DNA from: Lachnospiraceae bacterium
GTDB lineage: Bacteria; Bacillota; Clostridia; Lachnospirales; Lachnospiraceae
Length of the DNA stretch: 40,980 bases
Direction of reading: 5' to 3'
Assembly: GCA_017437065.1 (NCBI GenBank)
Contig: JAFSBX010000063.1
Span: 1 to 40,980 of the forward strand
Part shown: positions 34,376 through 36,204 of the stretch, piece after piece
How the letters are laid out: every line of letters starts with the position of its first letter
Position numbering within the stretch: position 1 is the first letter of the stretch
Program-made: the position numbers and the translations under genes
The notes under the pieces: generated by a model
Told to the model about the DNA's origin: nothing
The model's database searches: none
Seen by the model: the letters and a program-made list of their open reading frames with translations, nothing else

Positions 34376-34930
34376 TTAAAACAATTTAAAATTTAAAAGA
34401 TCTAAAATCTGAAAAATTAAATTAACAGCTATACCTGCAAAGGATAAAATCGAAAATACTAATATTGCCGTTATCTTCCTGTTCATGCCATTCTGTGTAT
34501 TTAAAAGTGTCTCTGTCTGTTTTGCTGTCTGCTCTACAATTACTGCTTCCACATTGCGATACACCTTTACATCCTCTGTATGTACATATTCCTCTGTTTT
34601 TTTCAGAAGTTCTTCAATTTCTTTTTTGTTTTCCTGTAATTTCTTTTCTAATTCTTCACTCTTGTCCTGTAACTGAATTGCTTCAATTTTGGCAAGGCTT
34701 TCTTTCGTCAGTTCGTCCAGTTTCTGCGCTGATTCCGTAATCAGCTGATTCAAATTGTCTGCTGCCTCTGCCTGCTTAAGTCCTAACTTTCTTATTTCCT
34801 GAAAAGCTTCATCGTAGTCTGCTATCTGTGACTGCATTTTATCCATCTGTGCTGCCTCTGCCGCTGCATTCGCTTTAATCATTTCCTGTGCATTCAGCTT
34901 CTGTGCCAGCTTGTCCATAAAATTGTCCAT
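34376..34930 (-). CDS. Coiled-coil protein with C-terminal membrane segment
   Basis: I do not recognise this 184-residue protein. Residues about 1-140 are almost all helix with heptad-like patterns rich in Ala, Glu, Lys and Gln (KSEELEKKLQENKKEIEELLKKTEEY). One or two hydrophobic segments end the protein (AILVFSILSFAGIAVNLIFQILDLL). The layout suggests a tail-anchored cytoplasmic coiled coil. The ATG at 34930 has GGAGG 7 nt upstream; the longer frame to 34948 would use that site as coding sequence. It is cotranscribed with the flavin reductase from the promoter at 35014-35042. Confidence 0.8.
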   Translation of the reverse strand: MDNFMDKLAQKLNAQEMIKANAAAEAAQMDKMQSQIADYDEAFQEIRKLGLKQAEAADNLNQLITESAQKLDELTKESLAKIEAIQLQDKSEELEKKLQENKKEIEELLKKTEEYVHTEDVKVYRNVEAVIVEQTAKQTETLLNTQNGMNRKITAILVFSILSFAGIAVNLIFQILDLLNFKLF

Positions 34931-34985
34931 AATTTTTCCTCCAAACATATCTTCCTACCACTTTCACACGAATCAAATTATCCAA

Positions 34986-35014
34986 TAAATCCATATTTTC
35001 ATAACATGGATTTA
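34986..35014 (-). repeat. Leader hairpin before coiled-coil gene
   Basis: TAAATCCAT and ATGGATTTA form a 9-bp inverted repeat with an 11-nt loop, at the very start of the predicted transcript. It may stabilise the mRNA or act as an operator. Confidence 0.45.
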
Positions 35015-35042
35015 TTTTATCATTCCCAATGATTATTTACAA
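35014..35042 (-). promoter_or_regulatory. Promoter of coiled-coil/flavin reductase operon
   Basis: TTGTAA and TAAAAT are separated by 17 bp on the minus strand, about 84 bp before the ATG. Confidence 0.6.
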
Positions 35043-35136: not shown

Positions 35137-35190
35137 TTAACCATACCTTTACATCGCGTTCATATTTTGTTCATATTTAATTGTTATACT
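35137..35190 (+). promoter_or_regulatory. Candidate PhoP/PhoB-box promoter
   Basis: Four hexamers, TTAACC (35137), TTTACA (35148), TTCATA (35159) and TTCATA (35170), lie exactly 11 bp apart. They fit the PhoP consensus TTHAYA, with one mismatch in the first. An extended -10 box TGTTATACT ends at 35190. With a start near 35197 the hexamers lie at about -60 to -22, the arrangement of PhoP-activated promoters in Bacillus. No good -35 box is present, as expected for an activator-dependent promoter. Confidence 0.6.
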
Positions 35191-35196
35191 AAATAC

Positions 35197-35302
35197 ATCT
35201 TAAGAGAGCAGTTAATATTAAATATGACATATAGATAAATTTTTTCATAATAGCCTCGATGCCGAAAGGTATCGGGGCACTCCTCATTTATGAAGATTTT
35301 TT
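35197..35302 (+). ncRNA. Candidate small RNA with terminator hairpin
   Basis: A plus-strand transcript from the PhoP-like promoter would be about 106 nt and has no reading frame of note. It ends in an 11-bp hairpin with a GAAA tetraloop (GCCTCGATGCC, GAAA, GGTATCGGGGC at 35253-35278, with two G-U pairs). This is closed by an outer stem TTCATAA/TTATGAA (35244-35250 and 35288-35294), then six T (35297-35302). No plus-strand gene lies upstream that would need this terminator. Confidence 0.55.
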
Positions 35303-35339
35303 ATCATATACTCTTTAAAGCATTTTTCTATATGCCGTA

Positions 35340-35410
35340 TAAAATAAAAAAGAACTCCTTTTATATTGCATAATTTTTTATAACATATTATGACATATAA
35401 AGAAGTTCTT
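35340..35410 (-). terminator. Terminator of alarmone synthetase gene
   Basis: A long imperfect inverted repeat (about 24 bp per arm, AAGAACTTCTTT against AAAAGGAGTTCTT) follows the stop codon at 35428 and runs into TTTTTATTTT on the minus strand. Confidence 0.7.
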
Positions 35411-35427
35411 CTATCCGGTATTATCAA

Positions 35428-36204
35428 CTATTCTTTATTACTCTTTTCACTAAGATTTAAAATTTCTTCATTTAAAGACAACATTCTTGCATCTAAATCC
35501 GATACCATTCCGGCACATTCCACCAGTTCCCTTTTTATGTGTTCCGGCGCATTTCCCTCAAACTTATAATGTATTTTATGCTCAAGACTTGCCCAGAAAT
35601 CCATAGCGACCGTTCTTATCTGTATTTCTACCTTTGTGTCCACAATACGGTCTGATAAATACACCGGTATCACCACAAGCATATGATAACTCTTGTAACC
35701 ACTTGCCTTGGGATATGTAATATAATCTTTTACCGAAAGTACTTTGATATCTTTCTGATTACTAATCATATCTGCAATTCTGTAAATGTCGGAAGTAAAA
35801 GAACATATAACCCTTATTCCCGCAATATCATTCACATGGTCAATCATATTATCTATCGTAGATTCGTAATTATTTTTCTTTAATTTTTTTACAATGCTTT
35901 CTGAGCTTTTTATTCTTGATTTAATATGCTCAATCGGATTATATCTATGCACATGTTGAAACTCATCATTTAATACTTCCAGCTTTGTCTCAACCTGCTT
36001 TAACGCAGAATTATAAATGAGCATTACTTCTTTCCAGCTGTCTACGCCGTTTGTTCTTTCCATTTTTTCTATCACGCTTCTTCCCTTTTTATCCACTAAT
36101 AATTTTTTATGCCCTGCCGGCCCTTTTACTGCCGCATTCATTATACCATAGTTTTGGCAAAATGTGTATTTTTCACAATTATTTAATGTATTCTTAATTT
36201 TCAT
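35428..36204 (-). CDS. Small alarmone synthetase, RelA/SpoT domain only
   Basis: The protein should make (p)ppGpp from ATP and GDP or GTP. It has only the synthetase domain: RIKSSESIVKKLKK, DHVNDIAGIRVICSFTSDIYRI, the substrate loop ASGYKSYHMLV, and the catalytic VEIQIRTVAMDFWASLEHKIHYK. C-terminal helices follow. There is no HD hydrolase, TGS or ACT domain, so it belongs with RelQ/RelP-type enzymes. At 258 residues it is longer than RelQ, because an N-terminal extension of about 45 residues precedes the usual start. AAGGA lies 6 nt before this ATG and supports the long form; a shorter start at Met48 remains possible. It is a single-gene unit. Confidence 0.9.
   Translation of the reverse strand: MKIKNTLNNCEKYTFCQNYGIMNAAVKGPAGHKKLLVDKKGRSVIEKMERTNGVDSWKEVMLIYNSALKQVETKLEVLNDEFQHVHRYNPIEHIKSRIKSSESIVKKLKKNNYESTIDNMIDHVNDIAGIRVICSFTSDIYRIADMISNQKDIKVLSVKDYITYPKASGYKSYHMLVVIPVYLSDRIVDTKVEIQIRTVAMDFWASLEHKIHYKFEGNAPEHIKRELVECAGMVSDLDARMLSLNEEILNLSEKSNKE

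Follow-up and report, generated by a model that had tools for sequence, protein, structure and literature searches.

CiaR is a two-component regulator of the OmpR type, and PhoP and PhoB belong to the wider group of OmpR-family activators. In streptococci, two papers describe a set of CiaR-dependent small RNAs, the csRNAs, whose promoters carry 11-bp direct repeats, which combine anti-Shine-Dalgarno (anti-SD) and anti-start-codon sequences, and which are present as several related copies per genome (PMC3091779; PMC8186281). A link between HtrA and CiaRH is given in the title of a reference cited by one of them (PMC8186281). For WalR, a further paper gives the motif TGTWAH-N5-TGTWAH (PMC9210968). 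Regarding the Lachnospiraceae, a major gut family, nothing on small-RNA regulation was found in the open-licence literature, and this kind of regulation seems poorly described in the family.

The locus presented here belongs to a 40,980-nucleotide stretch of DNA from a Lachnospiraceae bacterium (GCA_017437065.1, contig JAFSBX010000063.1), which is called the window throughout. An earlier note had read a small part of it (Table 1) as a plus-strand small RNA activated by PhoP or PhoB upon phosphate limitation. The plus-strand RNA is well supported by its conservation, its covariation and its conserved promoter, and it is named type A in order to distinguish it from a paralog, type B. The reading that we prefer, and hold to be probable though far from settled, is that of a stand-alone small RNA activated by an OmpR-family regulator, which would block translation start sites and form part of an envelope-stress-like regulon with type B and, in some cases, HtrA.

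The closest analogue of this RNA is the CiaRH/csRNA system. As in the csRNAs, the promoter has 11-bp repeats and would be under a two-component regulator, related copies exist, and the anti-SD and anti-start-codon sequences are located outside the conserved helix. The box is TTTAAG-N5-TTTAAG in the streptococcal promoters, whereas it is TTCATA-N5-TTCATA here (69 of 70 homologs); the csRNA nonamer with UCCUAAA (PMC3091779) is absent, the sequence here being UCCUCAU; and both recognition elements of the csRNAs lie in one unpaired stretch, while in the Lachnospiraceae RNA a hairpin separates the anti-AUG from the anti-SD sequence. Since regulator box, nonamer and arrangement all differ, the RNA is best regarded as an analogue that works like the CiaRH/csRNA system and not as a member of it. 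The hosts of the csRNAs belong to a different bacterial family, and the likeness is one of regulatory design. The RNA offers a test case for the convergent evolution of two-component-driven, start-site-blocking RNAs.

Table 1. Features of the type A locus and its surroundings (positions in the window).
Feature	Position	Strand	Basis or remark
190-aa protein, family not recognized, divergent	34376..34948	-	no Pfam/NCBIfam match
Regulator box, 4 half-sites	35137..35175	+	TTAACC (35137-35142), TTTACA (35148-35153), TTCATA (35159-35164), TTCATA (35170-35175); 11-bp steps
Extended -10 TGTTATACT	35182..35190	+	conserved in homologs
Small RNA, ~106 nt, inferred	35197..35302	+	start from -10 and conserved YA step; end from T tract
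Variable 5' leader	35197..35233	+	start-to-core distance varies
Conserved 5' arm GATAAATTTTTTCATAATA, putative anti-start-codon	35234..35252	+	complement of UAUUAUGAAAAAAUUUAUC; alignment of 10 sequences
Covarying hairpin, 11 bp, GAAA loop	35253..35278	+	GCCTCGATGCC-GAAA-GGTATCGGGGC
Conserved 3' arm ACTCCTCATTTAT, putative anti-Shine-Dalgarno	35279..35291	+	CTCCTC conserved
T tract TTTTTT, possible 3' end in this species	35297..35302	+	sequence
Long hairpin between RNA and alarmone synthetase gene	35341..35419	-	U run after stem on - strand
RelA/SpoT-type (p)ppGpp synthetase, convergent	35428..36204	-	PF04607, 3e-32

A DNA search of 40 relatives and the genome of the window (E ≤ 0.01) gave matches in 19 of the 41 genomes; the element was recognized by eye in nine relatives, and the remainder were mostly short AT-rich matches. 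The covariance model built from the ten aligned sequences (window and nine relatives) matches 158 of 397 Lachnospiraceae genomes at E ≤ 0.01, mostly once per genome. Strong matches (E < 1e-6) are found in 93 of the 397, and the weaker ones include sister types, so that between a quarter and two fifths of the sampled genomes retain the RNA. The detailed counts given below refer to 70 homologs, drawn from the strongest matches and representing 69 genomes (one of them contributes two). Among the matches listed (at least 119 stretches, with 80 loci examined) are Roseburia sp. 1XD42-69, Eisenbergiella tayi and Butyrivibrio sp. NC3005, as well as numerous Lachnospiraceae MAGs and a small number with unexpected titles (such as a Bacillus sp. 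and a Muribaculaceae bacterium). No family of Rfam 15 covers the element, either in the whole window at the gathering score or in the element itself at E up to 10, and none was found at the gathering score over the RNAs of six homologous loci, two of which are type B. Low-threshold matches to miRNA, snoRNA and one CRISPR repeat model fell below the gathering scores and were taken as chance. The exact core pattern of type A was not found in viral contigs.

Both the four hexamers at exact 11-bp spacing and the extended -10 that the earlier note had described are present in the sequence. The agreement with TTHAYA, from which phosphate control had been deduced, holds for 23 of the 24 letters and fails at the last letter of the first hexamer, which is a C. 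The box is the best four-unit TTHAYA array of the whole window on both strands, and no array with one mismatch or less was obtained in 200 order-1 Markov windows; a loose pattern of three TTHAYA units is uninformative in the genome of the window (19 sites vs 35 with a reversed control). What had been expected of related genomes, recurrence of the spaced hexamers and compensatory changes in the hairpin, is found in the alignments: tandem TTCATA units, 11 bp apart and with at least 11 of 12 letters, stand upstream of the RNA in 69 of the 70 homologs. The column counts of 68 distinct promoters give, in order, weaker TTHAC and TTYAYA units, two TTCATA units, TGNTATACT and the YA step. The C is present in both TTCATA units of all 68, and in the -10 the TA and the last T are equally invariant (68/68). 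Column by column, the promoter is conserved to about the same degree as the RNA, and an RNA kept so widely together with its promoter offers a direct way into the stress physiology of the Lachnospiraceae.

On the promoter matrix, the RNA promoters score from 19.6 to 50.2. Among the matches listed, 76 loci from named genomes have 120 nt or more of upstream sequence, and every one of them scores above 19 (the other 4 of the 80 loci had too little, and some species are also in the training set of the matrix). A three-unit matrix applied to 1.225 Mb of the genome of the window gives 39.1 for the window, 24.3 for the type B RNA and 16.0 for the next independent site, type B being outside the training set but known when the contigs were chosen. 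As far as sequence can tell, the promoter fits an OmpR-family activator of the wider kind of PhoP and PhoB. A palindromic stretch that matches itself on the other strand (34976-35024) is located between the divergent gene and the promoter.

Regarding the RNA, the ~106 nt reported to be free of genes indeed overlap no open reading frame of at least 50 aa on either strand, and their fold beats 200 of 200 dinucleotide shuffles (z -3.8). The distance from the inferred start to the core model ranges from 12 to 66 nt in the 70 homologs. In 69 distinct rows, 98.8% of the 748 hairpin cells are paired; double changes are found in 111 cells, compared with an average of 26 over 500 shuffles, none of which is as high, and affect 8 of the 11 pairs, and versions of the hairpin slid along the alignment give far lower counts. 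G-U or U-G combinations occupy 115 of the 748 pair cells and would be A-C mismatches if the other strand were the RNA; therefore, the plus strand is taken as the RNA strand. The flanking arms are nearly invariant in the ten aligned sequences, with GATAAATTTTTTCATAATA on the 5' side of the hairpin and ACTCCTCATTTTAT on the 3' side. The putative anti-start-codon element of the 5' arm is UUUUUUCAUAAU and the putative anti-SD element of the 3' arm is ACUCCUCAUUU; CTCCTC is invariant in the ten sequences, and all 70 homologs have it in their core. The arms lie outside the conserved helix; in the full-length fold of the window sequence, weak pairing is possible for parts of them. The GAAA-loop hairpin and the six T in which the RNA had been said to end are both present, but the T run starts 18 nt past the hairpin and, therefore, the hairpin itself is not a standard terminator; a pattern scan for terminators between 34600 and 35800 found none. 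A T tract within 25 nt past the anti-SD arm is found in 22 of the 70 homologs, window included, and so the 3' end varies.

According to the preferred reading, type A would be transcribed on the plus strand from its own promoter upon binding of an OmpR-family response regulator, probably not PhoB, to the four half-sites upstream of the -10. The stable hairpin would be flanked by two presented arms, the anti-start-codon UUUUUUCAUAAU and the anti-SD ACUCCUCAUUU. Given the order anti-AUG, hairpin, anti-SD, the RNA could span the start codon and the SD of a single mRNA, leaving its hairpin looped out across from the spacer, in such a way that both elements of one translation start site would be paired at once and initiation would be blocked. 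The complementary sequence, of the AUGAAAAAA type, suggests that the targets are mRNAs of exported proteins, with Met-Lys-Lys signal peptides. The box, the -10, the covarying hairpin, the conserved arms, the paralog and the sharing of the box are read directly from the sequences, whereas the class of the regulator and the blocking of translation are what we infer from them.

Pairing energies were predicted for 953 genes called with a simple script (~31% of the genome of the window). The type A arms reach a mean of -14.92 kcal/mol against start regions, compared with -12.87 for shuffled arms, none of whose 60 sets is as low, and -13.06 for inner gene stretches. The type B arms reach -15.41 and are not better than every shuffle, the lowest shuffled set being -15.96; their gain over shuffled arms is similar in size to that of type A. 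Among the 60 partners predicted to pair best with type A, signal-peptide-like genes show only a mild enrichment (11/60 vs 130/953). The only match of the two-arm pattern in this genome is a Peripla_BP_6 lipoprotein gene (L478:17241), with 10 + 10 bp. The two-arm start-site pattern is found in 29 of 93 strong carriers and in 56 of 304 other genomes (p=0.013, uncorrected for phylogeny and base composition), and no target conserved across genomes was found. Because no target is conserved and the two-arm enrichment in carriers is weak, the target class is likewise something that we infer.

The same box is found at other loci. A scan with the box pattern covered 57 carrier genomes, and 20 other sites, hand-picked from many, were read: ten are located before type B RNAs, four before HtrA-like genes (three of the four checked, with Trypsin_2 and PDZ in Pfam), three before another long ORF, one is a copy of the type A promoter at a contig end, and two have nothing evident after them. 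The layout of type B is CTTTTTCATAATAA(A)TGCC-hairpin-GGCATCCTCCCTTTT, and its hairpin also covaries, with double changes in 7 of 12 pairs (14 sequences). In the genome of the window, type B (L236, 5125-5193; G000:C86) follows a gene reading by eye as a cyclophilin, and its -10 lies a long way downstream of a GTTCATA box. With type A, type B and, in some genera, HtrA, the box would define a small envelope-stress-like regulon.

A box precedes an HtrA-like gene in 6 of the 57 genomes, from four genera, a count that includes G017 and the same-genus G357, the latter by identical site alone. In the genome of the window (G000), G412 and G017, htrA adjoins mutS2 and a response-regulator/kinase pair; mutS2 and the regulator are found near htrA in G122 and G267, and mutS2 alone in G293. 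In the mutS2-htrA clusters read, the regulator is of the OmpR type and usually present. The response regulator, kinase, HtrA and MutS2 of the genome of the window were identified by family search, and the nearest NCBIfam models for the pair, all below cut-off, are MtrA and YycF for the regulator (251.6 bits for YycF, the curated cut-off being 340) and WalK for the kinase. There is a further likeness to WalR/YycF in that the RNA box can be read as TGTTCA-N5-TGTTCA, although one letter per half-site deviates from the WalR motif. HtrA was rejected as a universal member of the regulon: a good box is found in just 1 of the 15 closest HtrA homologs, the htrA promoter of the window's own genome being among the 14 that have none. 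No box was found before the two-component genes near htrA in the three genomes read. A more ambitious version of the proposal, which we consider tentative and rather doubtful, would make types A and B the RNA branch of an envelope-stress regulon that is centred on HtrA and run by the response regulator of the mutS2-htrA cluster. It would represent an independent invention of the CiaR-csRNA logic by the Lachnospiraceae, with an anti-start-codon/anti-SD clamp, split around a hairpin, that recognizes the mRNAs of exported proteins as a class. The identification of the regulator with that of the mutS2-htrA cluster is the least certain step.

Other boxes were noticed during these comparisons. In 11 of 15 second HtrA paralogs (L252-L266), a TATACT-like -10 is preceded by a distinct 11-bp box resembling CACA-N6-ACACAAAT, a finding that suggests another dedicated regulator. 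An ABC ATPase gene (L034) and OmpR-type response regulators (L127, L129) are preceded by boxes of the CTTCATAYGAAATTCATA type, and the box is also present in L204 and L213. These CTTCATA-box clusters (L034, L127, L129) were set aside, as they look like a separate system, likely a self-regulated one.

Among the alternatives, the original proposal that PhoP or PhoB activates the RNA under phosphate limitation has to be considered first, and we regard it as unlikely. The promoter does share a Pho-type feature, namely tandem TTHAYA half-sites in 11-bp steps before the -10, with four units at the placement cited for PhoP. In addition, units 1-2 (TTAAC, TTTACA) are similar to the boxes before pstS in the same genus (TTACAT, 11-bp steps), the pstS promoters of six carrier genomes show TTACA-type repeats by eye, and a CATA core is common to the RNA box and the pstS boxes. 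On the contrary, half-sites 3-4 are unlike the pstS boxes of the same genomes: the C of both TTCATA units is fixed in all 68 RNA promoters, and none of the six genomes read has a tandem TTCATA pair before pstS. On the RNA-promoter matrix, the pstS promoters of the six genomes score from -11.3 to -31.2, values that shuffled DNA also reaches (median -22.6, maximum -6.0). The presence of the RNA is also independent of PstA, the marker of the Pst system used in the co-occurrence test. PstA matches were found in 235 of the 397 genomes, with 56 of 93 strong carriers and 179 of 304 other genomes (odds ratio 1.06, p=0.90), and 37 of the 93 strong carriers have no PstA match. Promoter scores are equal with PstA (median 41.4, n=42) and without it (42.1, n=27; p=0.45). 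Finally, reading of the other box sites led to HtrA and to the sister RNA, and to nothing that was recognized as a phosphate gene. Phosphate control is thus not supported by co-occurrence, promoter scores or pstS promoters; PhoB keeps some probability because units 1-2 look Pho-like and the marker tested was PstA, not PhoB.

It is similarly improbable, in our opinion, that the RNA mainly binds a protein or the ribosome, in which case it would be a decoy, equipped with a hairpin and an anti-SD-like segment, that does not select mRNAs. Such a role would account for arms that are nearly invariant and yet have no conserved target, and GAAA loops are common (25 of 70 homologs). The anti-SD arm resembles the 3' end of the 16S rRNA, a likeness that also points in this direction. 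Nevertheless, an anti-AUG sequence in the 5' arm, placed 5' of the anti-SD as a translation start site demands, would be superfluous in a plain decoy.

A far less probable explanation places the function of the element in cis, as an antisense or bidirectional terminator region of the alarmone synthetase gene or as the leader of a downstream plus-strand gene. The flanking gene described earlier as an alarmone synthetase does match the RelA_SpoT family on the other strand (Table 1), while the supposed membrane protein on the other side has no match in Pfam or NCBIfam. A convergent RelA/SpoT-type homolog is found within 700 nt of the RNA in 39 of 70 loci, which speaks for a cis function, but none was found in 26 of 70 within the flank read (up to ~5 kb, shorter in some). 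Homologs of the 190-aa protein adjoin the RNA in 37 of 70 loci. Moreover, no plus-strand ORF of 50 aa starts before 35390, the one that starts there lies inside the region of the opposite gene, and type B, with the same kind of arms, is located elsewhere in the genome. The region 35320-35425 folds well on the minus strand (z -3.5), and the long hairpin within it is likely the terminator of the alarmone synthetase gene. The idea of a minus-strand leader with a short MKKF-type peptide, to which the reverse complement (SD-hairpin-ATGAAAAAATTTATC) lends itself, is hardly credible, since its frame varies from 3 to 42 aa in the 70 homologs, the G-U pairs favor the plus strand and the promoter elements face in the plus direction.

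Some described RNAs were also found in the DNA studied. In one relative (L188), the type A RNA is flanked by two Clostridiales-1 RNAs (RF01699; 3434-3600 and 7078-7229). The window itself contains, on its minus strand, a TwoAYGGAY RNA (RF01731; 10284-10449, 113.9 bits), for which we know of no function, and a SAM riboswitch (RF00162; 16711-16830, 72.2 bits).
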